Origin: an uncultured Synergistales bacterium
GTDB lineage: Bacteria > Synergistota > Synergistia > Synergistales > Aminobacteriaceae
DNA: 42,747 bases
Reading direction: 5' to 3'
Assembly (NCBI GenBank): GCA_905233565.1
Contig: CAJOCL010000019.1
Location: 1-42,747, forward strand
A model generated the notes under the pieces. That model searched no databases and was not told where the DNA came from. It saw nothing but the letters and a program-made list of their open reading frames with translations. Below, piece by piece: positions 3,056-42,747 of this stretch. A program made the position numbers and the translations under genes. The first letter of the stretch is position 1. Every line of letters begins with the position of its first letter.

Positions 3056-4579
3056 CTAATAAATAAACTCTTTTTCATCATCAGGATTTGAATCCGGGTA
3101 ATCAGTCCTGTTATGTGTTCCCCTGCTCTCTTTCCTGTTAAGCGCAGCCTTTGATATTAAGTGAATCGCCAGTGCCGTCTGCTGCGTCATATCGTCCTTC
3201 AGCGTCTCAGGGTCATTCATGATTTTTTGTGCTGCCTCAAGTGCCGCCGTCAAATCCGTGCCGTTCCTGTAAACTCCGAGTGCATGTCCCGCAATCTTCC
3301 TGAGTTCAGAAAGATATTTCGCCCTCACTGAGTCATCACGCCTGTAAACCGCCGGACGTTCTGAGATTTCCCGGTCAAGTTCTCCCGTCCTCATTATGCC
3401 CTCAGCGCAGAGAAGACCCGACATTGTAGCCTGACTTGCCGCGTTACCGGCACACCTGCACGCGCCGTGAATCCCTCCGCAGGCCTCACCGACAGCGTAT
3501 AATCCCGGAACATCTGACTCATAATTACCGTCAACCCTTATTCCGCCGGAAAAACTGTGAGGCATCGGGCCGACTTCAAGAAGTTCTTTCTTCGGATCAC
3601 ATCCGCTCTGAATCAGCCTGTTATAGAACCAAGGGTAAGCCTTCAGAATTTCAACGTCAATGTGTCTCAGGTCTACCCATATTCCGCCGTGAGGGTTTCC
3701 CTTCCCTTTTGCAACCTGTTTCCAGATTTCATGGTTGATTAAGGATTTCGGCGCACCTGCCTCGCCCTGCGGCCTTACTTCAAGAAGGAATCTTTCACCG
3801 TCCGAATTTAACAGATAACCGCCCTCGCCAAGCATGGCCGTCGGACACGGTTCACCGACAGCACCGGCAGGAGACATCATAACCATCGGTTCAAACTCGA
3901 TAAACTCAATATCAACGAGCTTTGCCCCTGCGTTCTTCGCCATTCCCAGAGTGTAGCCGTTCACATCATCAGGATACGTTGAAGTCCCGAGAAGATTCCC
4001 GACCCCTCCCCATGACGCTATCACTACAGGCGCGTAGACATTGTAAGGCTCTCCGCCTTCGTCAACAGCCGTGAAGCCCTCGATTTTCCCGTCAGAACTT
4101 TTCAGGAGATTAACGGCAACGCTTTTTCTGTGAAATTCTATTCCCGCCTCTTCGAGTTTTTTCAGCATTACGCGCTCAATCTCAACGCCGATTAAATTCG
4201 TAGTCTGGCATAATGAACGCGGATATGTGTGTCCCGAAACATGACGAAGTTTTATGCTGCCGTCATCATTGTGTGCGAAAGTTACGCCCCACCTGCATAG
4301 AAGCTCGTAGCCCCTGAGAGTGTTTGCAGCCATTTCGTTTACTAATTCTTTATTCCCGATGTTGTAGCCTGCTGCTAACATGTCCTTTGCGTATTGCTCG
4401 GGTGTATCGCCGTAGGGATTTTCAGGAAGGACGAAGTTTATCGCCGCAATGTAGGGAGTACCGCCAAGACCGTCAGCGTAAACTGCAATGTCCTTAACTC
4501 CCTGTTCGTGCAGTCTTGCCGCCGCTGCAAGTGCCGCAAGTCCGCTACCGGCTATTGCAACTCTGTGATGTCTGCTCAT
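3056..4579 (-). CDS. FAD-binding fumarate reductase/succinate dehydrogenase flavoprotein-like oxidoreductase
   Basis: The protein is 507 residues. The N-terminal dinucleotide-binding motif VAIAGSGLAALAAAARL (residues 7-23) is followed by fumarate-reductase flavoprotein features: the substrate-domain motif HVSGHTYPRSL near residue 113, GGIRVDGNYESDVPGLYAVGE near 345 (typical of the FAD domain), and GACRCAGNAASQAT near 374. Members of this family oxidise or reduce C4 acids, aspartate or steroid-like substrates. No iron-sulfur or membrane-anchor subunit lies next to it, so it probably works as a stand-alone enzyme. Its start overlaps the stop of the TRAP permease gene by 4 bases (ATGA), tying it to uptake of the same compound. 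The exact substrate is unknown. Confidence 0.8.
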   Translation of the reverse strand: MSRHHRVAIAGSGLAALAAAARLHEQGVKDIAVYADGLGGTPYIAAINFVLPENPYGDTPEQYAKDMLAAGYNIGNKELVNEMAANTLRGYELLCRWGVTFAHNDDGSIKLRHVSGHTYPRSLCQTTNLIGVEIERVMLKKLEEAGIEFHRKSVAVNLLKSSDGKIEGFTAVDEGGEPYNVYAPVVIASWGGVGNLLGTSTYPDDVNGYTLGMAKNAGAKLVDIEFIEFEPMVMMSPAGAVGEPCPTAMLGEGGYLLNSDGERFLLEVRPQGEAGAPKSLINHEIWKQVAKGKGNPHGGIWVDLRHIDVEILKAYPWFYNRLIQSGCDPKKELLEVGPMPHSFSGGIRVDGNYESDVPGLYAVGEACGGIHGACRCAGNAASQATMSGLLCAEGIMRTGELDREISERPAVYRRDDSVRAKYLSELRKIAGHALGVYRNGTDLTAALEAAQKIMNDPETLKDDMTQQTALAIHLISKAALNRKESRGTHNRTDYPDSNPDDEKEFIY

Positions 4580-37132: not shown

Positions 37133-39132
37133 TGCGTAAACTTTCAGGATTTCCGAAGACACTCATTTATTTATACGTTCTTGCTATGGGTGTTTTTCAT
37201 CTTTTCACGGCAAGTGCGGGGAATTATGAGGCATATTTGCAGCGTTCAATACATCTTGCGTTCGTCCTGCCGTTAGCGTTCGTATTGTTCCCGATGACAA
37301 AGAATGCCCCCAAAGATAAAGTGCCGTTTTATGATTGGATTCTTGCAGTTTTGGCGGCTGCACCGGGCGTATATTCAACCGTCAACTACACGGCTATAAC
37401 GGAACGAATACAGCAGATTGACCCTTTGACGACAGCACAGTTAGTGCTGGGTTCGCTGCTTGTAATATTATTGCTTGAAGGTACAAGACGCATAGTCGGT
37501 CTTCCGTTGTCGTTAATCGCGGCACTGTTTGCCGTATATATGCTTTACGGCTACAAACTTCCGGGACTGTTGCAGGGCTTTCCGTTTTCATATCCTGAAG
37601 TCATCGAACAGCTTTATTTGACTGATGAGGGAATATTCGCTTCACCGCTGGGAGTTTCGGCAACTTATGTAATGATATTCCTGATATTCGGCGCATTCCT
37701 TGAGAAGTCGGGAGCCGGTGACTGGTTTATGAGCGTTGCACAGGCTTTCACGGGAACGACACCGGGAGGCCCTGCACAGATCGCAGTATTAAGCTCATGC
37801 CTTTTCGGGTCGATTTCAGGTTCAGCTGTTGCAAATGTCTACGGCACGGGAACTTTTACAATTCCCTTAATGATGAAAATCGGTTATGAGCCGTTTTTTG
37901 CCGGAGCCGTTGAGGCTGTTGCCAGTTCGGGAGGTCAGATAATGCCGCCGATTATGGGTGCAGGAGCGTTTTTAATGGCATCATTCTTGGGATTGCAGTA
38001 CAGGGAAATAATGATAGCTGCAATATTCCCAGCATTGCTTTATTACGGAGCATTATTCTTAATGGTAAGGCTGAGGGCATTGAAGACGGGCTTAAAAGGT
38101 CTTGACCCTTCAGAACTTCCGACAAAACACGATGTTTTAAGCAAGTTTTACATGATTGCGCCCATACTGGGATTAATCGTTTTTCTTTTAATCGGCTATA
38201 CGCCGATGAGGGCTGCACTGCTGGGGATCGGCCTTGCGTGGCTTGTTTCGTTCTTTAATTTCAAGCCTGATACAACGTCATCACAAAAATTAATGGCCGT
38301 AACCGTTGCTTTAATCTCGCTGGGGCTTGGAGTATTTTTCACGTTGAAGCCTGAAATTGCAAACAGCGTAAAACCCGGTATTCAGTTCGTAATAGTCGGT
38401 GCATACATGCTGATTGCCTCAATGTTCAATCCTGGAATGAATACGCGTGATTTTATTGACGCAATCGAACAGGGAGCGCGGGGAATACCGTTAGTCTGCG
38501 TTGCCTGTGCAACAGCCGGAATAGTTCTCGGAGCTGTTTCGCTGACGGGAATCGGCGGTAAACTGGTAGGCTTTGTCATTTCATTTGCAGGAGATATGAG
38601 GCTTCTTGCGCTGATTCTTGTAATGTTAATTGCAACGCTTCTCGGAATGGGACTGCCGACAACGGGAGCTTATATCCTTGCCGCTGCGTTAGGCGCACCG
38701 ATACTTGTTAAGCTGGGATTTCCTCCGATAGCGGCTCACATGTTCGTATTCTATTACGCAATAATCTCGAACATAACGCCCCCTGTAGCTCTGGCGGCAT
38801 ATGCTGCAAGTTCGATCGCAAATTCAAATCCGAACAAAACAGGTTTTCAGGCCATGCAGCTTGGATTTTTGGCTTATGTCGTACCTTTTGCGTTCTGCTA
38901 TGATCCGGGCTTATTGATGCAGGGTTCATGGGCTCAGATAGGCTGGGCATTGTTAAGCGGACTCGGCGCGGTTTTCTCGTTTGCTTATATGTGGATGGGC
39001 TATATAAAGCGTGATATTTCAGTTTTAATGAGAATATTACTGTGCGTTTCGGGCGTTTTGTGCCTGACCGTATGGCCGGCTTCGACTATTGCAGGACTTG
39101 TGATTCTTGCCGTTGTGTATTTCATATCTTAA
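37132..39132 (+). CDS. TRAP transporter fused permease (4TM/12TM), second TAXI system
   Basis: The protein is 666 residues, paralogous to the permease at 4576-6549. It has the DctQ-like N-terminal part and a DctM-like part with SSCLFGSISGSAVANVYGTG near residue 221, GAVEAVASSGGQIMPPIMG near 257, LLGMGLPTTGAYILAAALG near 505 and FVFYYAIISNITPPVALAAY near 535. It imports the ligand captured by the TAXI protein upstream. Its last codons abut a TnpB-like fragment: relative to the first permease about 10 C-terminal residues are missing, and the TAA stop at 39130-39132 coincides with the start of the fragment. The missing tail is probably not essential. Confidence 0.93.
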   Translation: MRKLSGFPKTLIYLYVLAMGVFHLFTASAGNYEAYLQRSIHLAFVLPLAFVLFPMTKNAPKDKVPFYDWILAVLAAAPGVYSTVNYTAITERIQQIDPLTTAQLVLGSLLVILLLEGTRRIVGLPLSLIAALFAVYMLYGYKLPGLLQGFPFSYPEVIEQLYLTDEGIFASPLGVSATYVMIFLIFGAFLEKSGAGDWFMSVAQAFTGTTPGGPAQIAVLSSCLFGSISGSAVANVYGTGTFTIPLMMKIGYEPFFAGAVEAVASSGGQIMPPIMGAGAFLMASFLGLQYREIMIAAIFPALLYYGALFLMVRLRALKTGLKGLDPSELPTKHDVLSKFYMIAPILGLIVFLLIGYTPMRAALLGIGLAWLVSFFNFKPDTTSSQKLMAVTVALISLGLGVFFTLKPEIANSVKPGIQFVIVGAYMLIASMFNPGMNTRDFIDAIEQGARGIPLVCVACATAGIVLGAVSLTGIGGKLVGFVISFAGDMRLLALILVMLIATLLGMGLPTTGAYILAAALGAPILVKLGFPPIAAHMFVFYYAIISNITPPVALAAYAASSIANSNPNKTGFQAMQLGFLAYVVPFAFCYDPGLLMQGSWAQIGWALLSGLGAVFSFAYMWMGYIKRDISVLMRILLCVSGVLCLTVWPASTIAGLVILAVVYFIS

Positions 39133-39290
39133 ATGCAGATATAAACGGAGCATTGAATATACTCAAAAAATGTAATCTGGTAAACCTTCAGGTTTTACAG
39201 GATAGAGGCTGTGTAAACCAGCCCCAGCGAATAAGGCTCTACGGAGCAAACTTCTCTGAAAGCTCTCGACTTTAGTCGAGAGTTGTTTAC
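39129..39290 (+). mobile_element. Relic of a TnpB (IS605/IS1341-type) 3' end with right-end hairpin
   Basis: In frame from 39129 the sequence encodes LNADINGALNILKKC, then DRGCVNQPQRIRLYG, ending at TAG 39273-39275. This is the C-terminus of TnpB/OrfB proteins (xADxNGALNIL, RGxVxxPxRIRL). A perfect 8-bp hairpin, CTCTCGAC (39263-39270) and GTCGAGAG (39275-39282) around TTTA, overlaps the stop, as right-end hairpins of IS200/IS605 elements do. The zinc ribbon, RuvC core, start and left end are absent, so only the last 50 codons remain. Because omega-RNA normally overlaps the tnpB 3' end, a remnant of that RNA gene may be kept. Confidence 0.8.
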
Positions 39291-39373
39291 TCTAACGTTA
39301 TTTTCATCGATAAGTCGCTTAACATCCTCAAGGGTTATAGTACGGCTTTTATTCTCCTTTTTGCCTGATAGTG
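39291..39373. other. Short unassigned spacer
   Basis: This stretch lies between the IS605-like right end and the first tandem unit. On the minus strand a frame continues through it (TITLEDVKRLIDENN), but its start would be in the tandem RNA unit and it runs on into the TnpB relic. I see no supported gene here. Confidence 0.3.
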
Positions 39374-39379
39374 TATAAT
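39374..39379 (+). promoter_or_regulatory. -10 box of tandem RNA unit 1
   Basis: A perfect TATAAT, preceded directly by GTG, is found at the same position in the unit as the other two. No good -35 is visible 17-18 bases upstream; the upstream sequence differs from that of units 2 and 3. Confidence 0.5.
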
Positions 39380-39384
39380 TAAAG

Positions 39385-39542
39385 TCGTCTGGGAGAGCTA
39401 CAGACAACAAACTTTAGAGCTTACACTGAAGCGGGGCTTGCATCCCCACCTCAGAGAATAAACTCTTTCTAATGGGGACTATGCTTTGAAAACCCGAATT
39501 AGATCCGTAAGTGTTCGTACAAGGTCAGTAACGGTTTGACGA
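39385..39542 (+). ncRNA. Predicted structured RNA, unit 1 of 3
   Basis: The start is set 6 bases after the -10. TCGTC (39385-39389) pairs with GACGA (39538-39542). TACAGAC (39399-39405) pairs with GTCAGTA (39524-39530) with one A-A mismatch. Inside, CTGAAGC-GGGG (39426-39436) pairs with CCCC-ACCTCAG (39444-39454), with a C-A mismatch in the middle, around loop CTTGCAT. CGAAT/ATCCG (39495-39507) forms a small hairpin with one mismatch. No open frame of useful size is present. I recognise no known family; 6S-like RNA is only a guess from the length and the end-to-end pairing. Ends are unmapped. Confidence 0.55.
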
Positions 39543-39565
39543 GCTTTATTGTAAAGTTGTATAAT
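39536..39565 (+). promoter_or_regulatory. Sigma70-like promoter of tandem RNA unit 2
   Basis: TTGACG (39536-39541) and TATAAT (39560-39565) are 18 bases apart. The GACGA of the -35 region is also the 3' strand of the closing helix of unit 1, so the same bases serve as RNA stem and promoter. Confidence 0.75.
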
Positions 39566-39570
39566 TAAAA

Positions 39571-39730
39571 TCGTCTGGGGAAGCTCAGACACTATCCTTT
39601 AGGGCTTGCCAAGCGGAGAGTGCTAGTCTCCACTTAGAAAATATAACCCTAAGGGCGGAAGACAATTAACGCTTAAGTTCGCGGATTAGATCCGTTATCG
39701 CTCGTACAAGGTCTGTTAAGGCTTTGACGA
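39571..39730 (+). ncRNA. Predicted structured RNA, unit 2 of 3
   Basis: TCGTC (39571-39575) pairs with GACGA (39726-39730), AAGC (39581-39584) with GCTT (39721-39724) and CAGAC (39586-39590) with GTCTG (39711-39715), making a long interrupted closing stem. CCTTTAGGG (39596-39604) pairs with CCCTAAGG (39647-39654) with one bulge. AAG-C-GGAGA (39611-39619) pairs with TCTCC-A-CTT (39627-39635) around loop GTGCTAG, in the same place as the GGGG/CCCC hairpin of unit 1. CGGAT/ATCCG (39682-39694) is a 5-bp hairpin. The stem sequence differs from unit 1 but the pairing is kept. It is the best-formed copy. Confidence 0.6.
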
Positions 39731-39753
39731 GCTTTATTATAAAGTTGTATAAT
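39724..39753 (+). promoter_or_regulatory. Sigma70-like promoter of tandem RNA unit 3
   Basis: TTGACG (39724-39729) and TATAAT (39748-39753) are 18 bases apart. The segment differs from the unit 2 promoter by a single base between the -35 and -10 boxes. Confidence 0.75.
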
Positions 39754-39759
39754 AAAAGC

Positions 39760-39886
39760 TATCTGGGGTAACTACAGACGGTACAAAAGCAGGGTTTACC
39801 ATGAAGCGGGGTTGCTATTCCCTCCTTTCTTGTTCAGTACTCGGAGGTTACCCCCGGCGAACCGTCTCGATGTTCTGAGACACTCC
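39760..39886 (+). ncRNA. Predicted structured RNA, unit 3 of 3 (divergent 3' half)
   Basis: The 5' half keeps TCTGGGG, CTACAGAC and the hairpin GGGG (39808-39811)/TCCC (39819-39822) with loop TTGCTAT and the same flanking mismatch pattern as unit 1. The 3' half is different. AGACGGT (39776-39782) can pair with ACCGTCT (39861-39867), and GGGGTAAC (39765-39772) with GTTACCCC (39847-39854). These two helices cross, so they would be a pseudoknot or alternatives. GTCTC/GAGAC near the end forms a last small hairpin. The 3' end is a guess. Confidence 0.45.
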
Positions 39887-40284
39887 CCGAAAAACATTTT
39901 ATCACGCCTCAAAAAAAATTCTTTTCGCAAATATTAAAGTCTCCCCGAACACCCTCCGAAAATGTCAGTGAAAAGAGAAAGGGCCCTCACAAAAACGCTG
40001 AAGGCCGAAACAAAAGAATACCTATTAGCTAATTAGGAAAAAGTTGTTTTTACAGAAAAAGCATTTTTTTAGTTTATCGTTATAATAAGTTCAAACGCCT
40101 ATCACCGCAGGAACTGGGCAGTTAAACCGAAACTCAACCGAACACTGCGCGAGTTCAACAAAAAAGTGAAGGCTTTAACCCGCAAAATTCCGGCGGAACA
40201 GGCACAGCAAACCCCCCAGTACACGGAAGCATTGGGGACAAAAAACAAAATTTTTTATCAATCACAACAAGGAGGTAACATACC
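39887..40284 (+). other. Flagellin leader region (non-coding, 398 bases)
   Basis: No gene is seen. Contents are a sigma28-like promoter (39935-39962), a near-palindrome at 40021-40037 centred on ATTAGCTAAT, an isolated TATAAT at 40081-40086 with no clear -35 box, poly-A/T tracts, and a strong AAGGAGGT (40269-40276) before the flagellin ATG. From the sigma28-like site the leader would be about 315 bases, unusually long for a flagellin mRNA. Confidence 0.5.
39935..39962 (+). promoter_or_regulatory. Candidate sigma28 (FliA) promoter for flagellin
   Basis: TAAAGTCT (39935-39942) and TCCGAAAA (39955-39962) resemble the flagellar consensus TAAAGTTT-N11-GCCGATAA (7 of 8 and 6 of 8 matches), with a 12-base spacer instead of 11. 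It points toward the flagellin gene. Confidence 0.45.
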
Positions 40285-42747
40285 ATGTCTATGGTAATTC
40301 AACACAACATACCCGCGCTGCAGACTTACAACATAGTCAACAGCACAAGCAATTCGCTCCAGAAGTCAATCGCTAAACTCTCAAGCGGACTGCGAATCAA
40401 CTCAGCCGCAGACGACGCTGCAGGTCTCGCAATTTCCGAGAAAATGCGCTCGCAGGTCAGAGGACTCGACAGAGCTGTCGCCAACACTCAGGACGGTATC
40501 AGCTTAATTCAGACCGCTGAAGGCGCTCTCAGTGAGACACATTCAATCCTTCAGAGAATGAGAGAGCTTTCTGTTCAGGCTGCCAACGACACACTAACTC
40601 AGCAGGACAGAAGCTACATTCAGGAGGAAATCGACCAGCTCAAAACTGAAGTTACCCGTATCGGCAACACTACTCAGTTCAACAAGAAAAAGCTCCTCAA
40701 CGGCGAATCAGCAGGTCTTTGGAGTTCAAGCGACATGGAGACTAAAGCCATCATCAACGGCGGACTCCGTGAAGTCGACCAGTTCGGGCAGAAGAAATCC
40801 ATCGAGGGCAACTACAAAATCCGCGTCAAGGCCGAACCCGGACAGGGCGAAGTCCAGAAGTCAGACATCATGACCATCAAGCACGCCAACGTTCTCACCG
40901 ACAAGACAATCAACGCTCCGCTGGGCATTAAGGATGTAAAAGTTGACGGGATGGCACCGGGCAGCTATTCGCTCTCAGCCACTGCCGCAACCGCTGCCGT
41001 AACAGCAAGCTCACGGGCAACAGGAGCCTACGGCGTGGGAGGAGCTAAGTACGAGGTAAAGGGTACATTGGCTAACACCGCCGCTACTAATGGTTTAGGC
41101 AATGGCGATGGGCAGGTTGCCAAATACAATGTCACGCTGGGCGGCAATAATTTGGGTACTATAACTGTAACTCAGTCCGGGACTACAGCACCCACAGAAG
41201 GAAATATAGCCGCATACCTCTTCGGTTCTACGAATACGAATGCCACTGTAAGCGGCCGTGATGAAGTTCTTGCAGCTGCTCGTGACTTGGGAATCGAGAT
41301 CAGCGGAGCCACGGATACTGTTACGCTGACGAAGTACGGCGATGGGAATTTCGGAGATTTTAACATTACGCTTGTTTCGAGTGACAACACTGCTGCAGCT
41401 ACTGCCGTAGGTAAGGCGATCTTCACAACCACCGGTAAGCCGAGTACTTCCACTACAACGTCTGCGGGCACAGCCGGAACCTCAGCAGCTGTCGCAAATG
41501 CTAACGCCGCAGGTGCTGACACGGCTACAACCATCAATCCGGTCTTCAACATCAATGCGGGAGCTATCACCAAGAACGCCAGCGTGCTGTTTGAGGTTAC
41601 AGGGATGGATTCGAAGAACAATACGGTAACACTGAAGGCAACTGCAACGCTGATGGACGCGAACGGCAACAATTCGACAGCAACCCAGGACGACATTGTT
41701 ATCACACAGGGATCAACAGGAGTATTACTCAACGAACTGTTCGGTATGACGGAAGACACCACCACCGCAACAAACAATCCATCAATCGCGCTTAATACCG
41801 GCAAGTTCGTGGCACTCTCGAAGGACAGCAAGTTTGTCGTCAACTTCAGTGCTTCCGCTACTGCTGCCGCTGCTATTGCACCCGCTACTGCTGCTACGCC
41901 CGATAACCTCACCTTCAGCCTCAGCGGCACGATTGATGAGGGCTGGGAGGACAGCTGGGACGGCGGAGTGTTTGCGAACAATAAGCCGACCTATGTATTG
42001 AACGGCAGGAAACTGGCAGACACCGAGATCAATTTCAAGAACTATATCCTGAATGAGAAGACCGGTACAGTTACACAGGGTACGGTAACAGTTGTTACTG
42101 ATGACAAGTTCTCTACGGACACAGACAACGGCGGCAAGCTCACAGCTACAACGCTTCCCGCGACAGGCACATCGCTTACTTCCTTCAAGAACACCTACAT
42201 CGGCAAGACGGCGACGGGAGACGTGAAACTGCGCGACCTCGACAAGTTCTGGAACTCAGAGGGCGTAATGATGCTCGATGACGCGAAGAAGATCACACTC
42301 AATCAGGGCGACGGCAAGACGGCGGACATCATGCTTTACGCGAACGACACGCTTGACGATGTAGCGAGAAAGATTAACGATGCGATTGCGACAGGACTCG
42401 GACAGTCGAAGTATGTTGATGACGCTACGAAGTTTGCGACGTTTGTATCGAGCAAGACAGAACTCACCTCTGAGGCAGTACCCGGAACATTCGTAATCCG
42501 CTCGGTAGTACCCGGAGCGTCAGGCGAAATCACGTTCTCAGGAGATCAGGGGATCATTGACGCATTCTCACTGAACACGATTCAGAACTCGAAGGAGACG
42601 ACATACAACGTTGACGTGGTTGACGAACACAGCGGGAAGATCATCGCCCAGAGTGTTAAGACGACCGGCAACGTAATGCACGGCATACTTCACGAGAACG
42701 TTGATGTTGAGTTCGGCGCGCTTGCGGGAGTTTCTGCGAACTGGAAC
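40285..42747 (+). CDS. fliC: Large flagellin, 5' part (open at window end)
   Basis: The start is ATG 40285, 8 bases after AAGGAGGT. The frame is open for 821 codons to the window edge without a stop. Flagellin is the exported subunit of the flagellar filament. Residues 1-150 are the conserved N-terminal D0/D1 helices: MSMVIQHNIPALQTYN, SLQKSIAKLSSGLRINSAADDAAGLAISE near residue 28 and ANDTLTQQDRSYIQEEIDQL near 103. From about residue 200 a very long Ala/Thr/Gly/Asn-rich variable region replaces the short D2/D3 of ordinary flagellins. A part near 680-800 (ADIMLYANDTLDDVARKIN) looks like flagellin hook-IN-type repeats. The C-terminal D0/D1 lies beyond the window. Common flagellins are 270-550 residues, so this one is clearly oversized. 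Confidence 0.92.
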   Translation, partial: MSMVIQHNIPALQTYNIVNSTSNSLQKSIAKLSSGLRINSAADDAAGLAISEKMRSQVRGLDRAVANTQDGISLIQTAEGALSETHSILQRMRELSVQAANDTLTQQDRSYIQEEIDQLKTEVTRIGNTTQFNKKKLLNGESAGLWSSSDMETKAIINGGLREVDQFGQKKSIEGNYKIRVKAEPGQGEVQKSDIMTIKHANVLTDKTINAPLGIKDVKVDGMAPGSYSLSATAATAAVTASSRATGAYGVGGAKYEVKGTLANTAATNGLGNGDGQVAKYNVTLGGNNLGTITVTQSGTTAPTEGNIAAYLFGSTNTNATVSGRDEVLAAARDLGIEISGATDTVTLTKYGDGNFGDFNITLVSSDNTAAATAVGKAIFTTTGKPSTSTTTSAGTAGTSAAVANANAAGADTATTINPVFNINAGAITKNASVLFEVTGMDSKNNTVTLKATATLMDANGNNSTATQDDIVITQGSTGVLLNELFGMTEDTTTATNNPSIALNTGKFVALSKDSKFVVNFSASATAAAAIAPATAATPDNLTFSLSGTIDEGWEDSWDGGVFANNKPTYVLNGRKLADTEINFKNYILNEKTGTVTQGTVTVVTDDKFSTDTDNGGKLTATTLPATGTSLTSFKNTYIGKTATGDVKLRDLDKFWNSEGVMMLDDAKKITLNQGDGKTADIMLYANDTLDDVARKINDAIATGLGQSKYVDDATKFATFVSSKTELTSEAVPGTFVIRSVVPGASGEITFSGDQGIIDAFSLNTIQNSKETTYNVDVVDEHSGKIIAQSVKTTGNVMHGILHENVDVEFGALAGVSANWN

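Follow-up and report, generated by a model that had tools for sequence, protein, structure and literature searches.

The window analysed here is a 42,747-nucleotide stretch of a contig of an uncultured Synergistales bacterium, and the three tandem units at positions 39374-39886 raise the question of what is encoded by a repeat that begins with a promoter and is built around a hairpin. The repeats are predicted to be the antisense RNA genes of a previously undescribed toxin-like peptide/antisense-RNA family of rumen and gut Synergistaceae, and the window likely contains a tandem series of type I toxin-antitoxin-like modules, partly decayed, that form a new family in the Synergistaceae. The preliminary description had proposed promoter-bearing structured RNAs of an unrecognised family. 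The unit spacing of 186 and 188 bp, the perfect TATAAT in every unit, the TTGACG that precedes units 2 and 3 with an 18-nt spacer (both promoter-like sites match 11/12) and the local hairpins are all found as described there, and these elements are located as follows.

39374-39379, plus strand: -10 box TATAAT of the antisense RNA gene of unit 1, at a position kept across the family
39560-39565, plus strand: -10 box TATAAT of unit 2
39748-39753, plus strand: -10 box TATAAT of unit 3
39536-39541, plus strand: TTGACG within the antisense of the peptide ORF, a fortuitous -35 for unit 2
39724-39729, plus strand: TTGACG, a fortuitous -35 for unit 3
39433-39447, plus strand: local hairpin of unit 1, GGGG-CTTGCAT-CCCC, which is the 3'UTR hairpin of the opposite-strand peptide mRNA
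39615-39631, plus strand: local hairpin of unit 2, GGAGA-GTGCTAG-TCTCC
39808-39822, plus strand: local hairpin of unit 3, GGGG-TTGCTAT-TCCC, apparently formed in part where a deletion brought in the Shine-Dalgarno (SD) region

The folding energies of the single units are no better than those of shuffled sequence (z of -0.31, -1.07 and 0.02), and structure cannot be concluded from the three units by themselves. Pairing between the RNA ends, as claimed for units 1 and 2, did not emerge among the conserved elements. The genome assembly is a draft of 34 contigs (96.5% completeness), in which tandem repeats such as this array can be misassembled.

A comparison with homologous units reveals a gene on the opposite strand. 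The minus strand of each full homologous unit carries a strong SD (typically GTGAAAGGAGGTGATAGC) followed by a short ORF, as in the peptides MRTIIKLVEAITDLVRAITDLIREFKR (L069) and MERIIKLIKALTELLRAIAEIIRLFKMR (L070). Pairwise differences at codon positions 1, 2 and 3 are 0.40, 0.16 and 0.63 with the terminator codons left out; third positions vary far more than second positions, which indicates that the ORF is coding. The peptides are 26-37 aa long and correspond to an amphipathic, mostly basic helix, with a strong SD in many copies, a mean net charge of about +3 and a helical hydrophobic moment above that of composition-shuffled peptides (mean z 2.8). The mean hydrophobicity of 0.10 describes an amphipathic rather than a clear transmembrane helix and counts against the type I reading. 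Intact members of the family thus have a small (<60 aa) amphipathic or hydrophobic peptide gene with its own promoter and SD; all copies in the window are disabled.

The strand read in the preliminary description is antisense to this ORF. The predicted antisense RNA is approximately 170 nt long; its TATAAT promoter overlies the terminator of the peptide mRNA, and it is ended by a second terminator located inside the peptide ORF. A perfect ATTATA (TATAAT on the other strand) is present in the A/T-rich tail of 42 of the 54 units with a peptide start and 8 of the 9 without one, compared with 4.3% of shuffled tails. The promoter shows no conserved -35 and the T run of the terminator is interrupted, both of which count against the preferred explanation. 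An antisense RNA gene with its own promoter that overlaps the peptide mRNA from the opposite strand is nonetheless present, as judged by sequence and conservation. Covariance model R1 was built from 49 antisense copies that include window units 1 and 2, and the bit scores of these two units therefore indicate completeness, not independent support.

39384-39555, plus strand: complete antisense (antitoxin-type) RNA gene of unit 1, from the 5' hairpin to the ORF-embedded terminator (R1 full model, positions 1-172, 122 bits)
39570-39743, plus strand: complete antisense RNA gene of unit 2 (R1 full length, 127.9 bits)
39758-39826, plus strand: 5' part of the antisense RNA gene of unit 3, the remainder being lost (nhmmer, model positions 5-67 at 39762-39826; only 14.7 bits with the covariance model)
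39387-39405, plus strand: 5' hairpin of the antisense RNA of unit 1, GTCTG-loop-CAGAC, complementary to the peptide mRNA's terminator-like hairpin
39513-39550, plus strand: terminator-like hairpin of the antisense RNA of unit 1, GTTCGT/ACGAGC followed by TTTATT
39700-39740, plus strand: terminator-like hairpin of the antisense RNA of unit 2, GCTCGT/ACGAGC followed by TTTATTAT

Four helices covary among the 49 aligned antisense copies: 88.6% of the cells are paired, and 16 of the 21 pairs contain double changes. The four helices hold 82 double-change cells, against 28.6 in shuffles and no more than 26 in slid structures; the shuffle control ignores the relatedness of the copies, whereas the slid-structure control does not. 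RNAalifold applied to the raw MAFFT alignment recovered only the 5' hairpin because the helices are misaligned there, and the named helices were counted instead. Covariation in the homologues thus establishes the structure that the three units alone do not. The proposal of promoter-bearing structured RNAs is supported, and so is the argument for selection on RNA structure. The accompanying statement that selection is not on protein does not hold, since the conserved stretch is the minus-strand peptide ORF; selection acts jointly on protein and RNA.

The overlap of the two functions is visible in the codons. The peptide ORF contains the last antisense helix (CTCGTA...TACGAG), after which the antisense strand reads TTTATTAT, complementary to the peptide's Ile-Ile-Lys codons. 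ATA is used at Ile 10 and Ile 11 in 48/51 and 50/50 copies, with ATC at Ile 28 in 42/54, and CGA is used at Arg 22 in 51/55 copies and at Arg 29 in 6/62. The bias at Ile 10/11 and Arg 22 is attributed to the antisense terminator that overlaps these codons, and the position of the terminator inside the ORF means that the antisense RNA stops before the SD. The TTGACG is no family feature and derives from the antisense of peptide codons; it lies 18 nt from TATAAT in the window because the peptide leader has been lost.

The peptide mRNA has an equally regular anatomy. Intact units possess an extended -10 promoter (TGnTARAAT), a leader of mostly 60-105 nt from the predicted start, the SD and start codon, an ORF of 26-37 codons, the 3'UTR hairpin (the local GGGG/CCCC hairpin), a terminator-like hairpin and the A/T-rich tail that carries the antisense promoter, which gives a predicted mRNA of about 245-315 nt. 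The 5'-terminal nucleotides of this mRNA are the complement of the loop in the terminator hairpin of the same molecule, and the two segments change together, as in GGGAAGC/GCTTCCC, GGGGAT/ATCCCC, GGAGAGG/CCTCTCC, GAAGAG/CTCTTC, CGGTGG/CCACCG, GGACAG/CTGTCC, GGCAGG/CCTGCC and others. Of the 43 distinct units, 35 have a 6-bp helix of this kind (19 different helices in all), compared with 5.1% of control segments from the same 3'UTRs and 22% of the loops of other units. Own pairs have a mean energy of -10.3 kcal/mol and cross-unit pairs -7.3, and 0 of 10000 permutations were as good. The SD is largely sequestered by pairing (mean probability of being unpaired 0.16, below the shuffled-leader value in 82% of mRNAs); this burial is modest relative to shuffled leaders, which weighs against the preferred explanation. 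In other genera, the SD is placed in CCCCC-GAAA-GGGGG. Prediction and covariation together point to a translationally inert primary transcript, and type I loci are characterised by non-translatable primary transcripts, some of which rely on a 5'-3' interaction (PMC6733600).

A mechanism may be proposed from these features. The minus-strand gene would yield the 245-315 nt mRNA that encodes the amphipathic helix, and with its 5' end paired to the terminator loop and its SD buried, the full-length mRNA is probably inert until it is processed. The plus-strand promoter over the mRNA terminator would produce an antisense RNA that spans the 3'UTR and the greater part of the ORF and stops at the terminator written in the peptide codons. 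The 5' hairpin loop of the antisense RNA, complementary to the mRNA terminator loop, would start the pairing, and the resulting duplex would block translation and probably lead to decay by RNase III; a peptide that escaped this block would insert into the membrane. The assignment to type I is based on layout and covariation. The sequences show the gene layout, the coding nature of the ORF, the promoters, the structures, their covariation and the decay, and transcription, antisense action, toxicity and processing are inferred.

Three peptide subfamilies share one RNA cassette. Copies that match only the first half of R1 encode a different 35-aa hydrophobic peptide (subfamily III, MKDFLDxIIKLLQIIS..ATVLEIIxRVIRYLxxH), which is present in 16 genomes of the genus. 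Loci L133, L081, L091, L093 and L150 belong to this subfamily, its peptide being unrelated and the RNA cassette the same, and its ORF seems to hold an antisense terminator as well (AAACTG...CAGTTT followed by TATTAT on the antisense strand). Subfamily II is mostly single-copy, and one intact member on contig 21 (L109) is the only other copy found in the genome of the window. This single-copy module occupies positions 2020-2106 of L109 with the peptide MRDLIKLLEAVAKVIHAIAVLINSIKKK, and its leader has an extra 5' hairpin, placed before GGGAAGC, the predicted partner of the terminator loop.

Related sequence was detected by DNA search in 27 of the 43 genomes of the same genus, and the RNA was detected in 34 of these 43 with R1. 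A peptide profile made from 23 peptides matches 51 of 188 Synergistota genomes in 12 of 63 genera, all in the single family Synergistaceae; the sequences that bear homologues include Synergistaceae and Synergistales from goat, deer and reindeer. Three SD-pattern matches in other phyla (L038, L044 and L047) precede unrelated proteins and were rejected as a sign of spread beyond Synergistota. The window RNAs have no Rfam match at the gathering threshold, in agreement with the proposal of an unrecognised family, and only chance-level matches at a relaxed threshold. An earlier guess of a 6S-like polymerase-binding RNA receives no support, as Rfam, which includes 6S, gave no match at the gathering score. 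The peptide has no match at threshold among the Pfam, NCBIfam, PHROGs and PADLOC models and is not placed in a known type I toxin family; as a known toxin or modulin it was rejected because the matches are all sub-threshold. A plasmid or phage origin was likewise rejected, one representative peptide having no match in either collection. The ORFs at 39195-39410 (minus strand) and 39042-39275 gave no Pfam match at threshold. A literature search, short on subscription journals, found nothing on type I systems in Synergistetes or Synergistaceae.

The window retains two complete antisense RNA genes and a further antisense promoter, and its three peptide genes are all disabled. The remains of the peptide genes are as follows.

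39479-39532, minus strand: peptide ORF remnant of unit 1, frameshifted and headless, VTDLVRTLTDLIRVFKA
39666-39740, minus strand: peptide ORF body of unit 2, open, with neither SD nor start codon, IIKLVKALTDLVRAITDLIRELKR up to the stop (profile match E 5.2e-14)
39821-39828, minus strand: orphan SD AAAGGAGG of the deleted third peptide gene (compare the L095 leader)
39829-39889, minus strand: leader of the third peptide gene
39896-39904, minus strand: extended -10 promoter TGATAAAAT of the third peptide gene

The body of unit 2 lacks SD and start because the antisense promoter of the next unit directly abuts it; unit 1 has suffered the same loss and a frameshift in addition. Unit 3 keeps the promoter, leader and SD of the peptide gene, and its ORF is gone. 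On the minus strand the SD region GGAGGGAATAGC runs directly into the right arm of the hairpin, which suggests that the ORF was apparently lost through a deletion joining GGAGGGAATAGC to that arm; the local hairpin of unit 3 therefore appears to be partly a deletion junction.

Such decay is not confined to the window. The sample contains 91 distinct full-length antisense copies, of which 73 have an intact peptide gene and 18 do not; approximately 10 of these 18 are headless with the whole antisense gene kept, and the others are frameshifts. In headless copies the upstream sequence differs among species and the break lies within a few bases of the antisense terminator, a breakpoint count that is small and comes from a search that favours long matches. 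Units truncated at other places also occur, which leaves selection for antisense-only copies a hypothesis rather than a result. At 3296 and 3602 of L071, two neighbouring units are frameshifted early in the peptide ORF with the antisense RNA otherwise intact.

To the left of unit 1, at 39125-39291 on the plus strand, lies the right end of an insertion element, with a TnpB-like tail (NADINGALNILKK, a weak PF07282 match) and a perfect hairpin (CTCTCGACTTTAGTCGAGAG). Elsewhere in the genome, six sites match it (86-99%) and share nearly the same end point, as in IS200/IS605-type elements, and there is one further weak match. To the right, a flagellin gene (Flagellin_N) at 40285-42747 on the plus strand runs off the end of the window.

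The neighbours bear on two other explanations. It had been guessed that the RNAs regulate the adjacent flagellin, and the flagellin start indeed lies within about 300-500 bp of the nearest unit in the window and in eight related loci. This adjacency is common to several species of one genus and marks a site that the array has long occupied; the majority of copies are located away from flagellin, which makes a flagellin-specific role unlikely and leaves the guess unsupported. As each RNA is also perfectly antisense to a conserved peptide ORF, and no dedicated pairing with flagellin mRNA was noticed, stand-alone regulatory RNAs of this or another kind are very improbable. More weight is due to the idea that the array is an inert repeat, either a multiplying element or neutral debris whose antisense RNAs are of no present use: all three peptide genes in the window are broken, an insertion-sequence end adjoins the array, and arrays with broken units occur in many species. 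Against this, units 1 and 2 retain the promoter, helices and terminator (122-128 bits, as a measure of completeness), and headless copies break at the antisense terminator, within the limits of the small breakpoint count and the search noted above. An inert array is accordingly regarded as rather doubtful.

The peptide itself could alternatively be a secreted or signalling amphipathic peptide, bacteriocin-like and with no toxic action on its own cell, with expression merely tuned by the antisense RNA. The amphipathic basic helices and a weak, sub-threshold likeness to modulin-type peptides in Pfam and NCBIfam would suit this explanation. However, no genes for export or modification were noticed beside the copies in an unsystematic inspection, and an antidote is a better fit for the ORF-embedded antisense terminator, the inert-mRNA design and the antisense genes kept after loss of the peptide start; a secreted peptide is thus considered unlikely. 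Within the preferred type I reading, it is possible, and proposed only tentatively, that the window is a naturally evolved antitoxin-only array, in which the peptide genes were removed and the antisense genes kept for neutralising mRNAs of the same family, whether from newly arriving or from remaining copies. Such an RNA anti-addiction array would belong to a modular type I superfamily, itself new, characterised by the exchange of unrelated peptides within one cassette.

Several known systems resemble the Synergistaceae modules in part. TxpA/RatA, BsrG/SR4 and similar Bacillus modules are convergent, with an antisense RNA that overlaps the 3' part of the mRNA. The Synergistaceae modules share this arrangement and differ in toxin sequence, in the antisense terminator inside the ORF and in the interaction between 5' end and terminator loop. 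TisB, DinQ, Ldr and Ibs of enterobacteria are short amphipathic or hydrophobic peptides, Ldr and Ibs in tandem repeats; the Synergistaceae peptides and arrays are similar in these respects, but there is no sequence family match and the RNA design differs. In hok/Sok the cis antisense RNA overlaps the mRNA leader. The Synergistaceae modules are like hok/Sok in having a cis antisense RNA and a 5' end whose pairing with the 3' end would keep the full mRNA inert (the metastable folding of hok is discussed in PMC6733600), whereas their peptide is unrelated and about half as long and their antisense RNA overlaps the 3' end of the mRNA, not the leader. The aapA/IsoA family of Helicobacter pylori, also type I, likewise comprises peptides of about 30 aa in several chromosomal copies, an antisense RNA with its own -10 box, a long-distance 5'-3' interaction in the mRNA and an SD hidden in hairpins (PMC6733600). 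No sequence relation to it was recognised, and the anti-SD lies at the 3' end in aapA, whereas the Synergistaceae mRNA pairs its 5' end with the terminator loop; the Synergistaceae antisense RNA starts over the mRNA terminator and stops inside the ORF, short of the SD, and the units form tandem arrays with antitoxin-only copies. In msoT1/msoA1 of Microcystis, a type I candidate that likewise lies beyond the three classical phyla, the predicted target of the antisense RNA is the 3'UTR together with the 3' end of the coding sequence (PMC12390103), as in the Synergistaceae modules. The peptide is unrelated, and the Microcystis system is a single locus with short antisense RNAs of 56 and 83 nt (PMC12390103).

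According to a 2025 paper, type I systems were previously known only from Proteobacteria, Firmicutes and Tenericutes, to which that paper adds a cyanobacterial candidate (PMC12390103). If the present assignment is true, type I toxin-antitoxin systems extend to Synergistota. The well over 70 sequenced copies constitute unusually rich covariation data, and the interaction of the 5' end with the terminator loop, the antisense terminator hidden in codons and the swapping of peptides in one cassette are directly testable. The recurrent loss of the peptide start with the antisense gene kept can be tested as well, and it bears on whether RNA antitoxins persist as antidotes.
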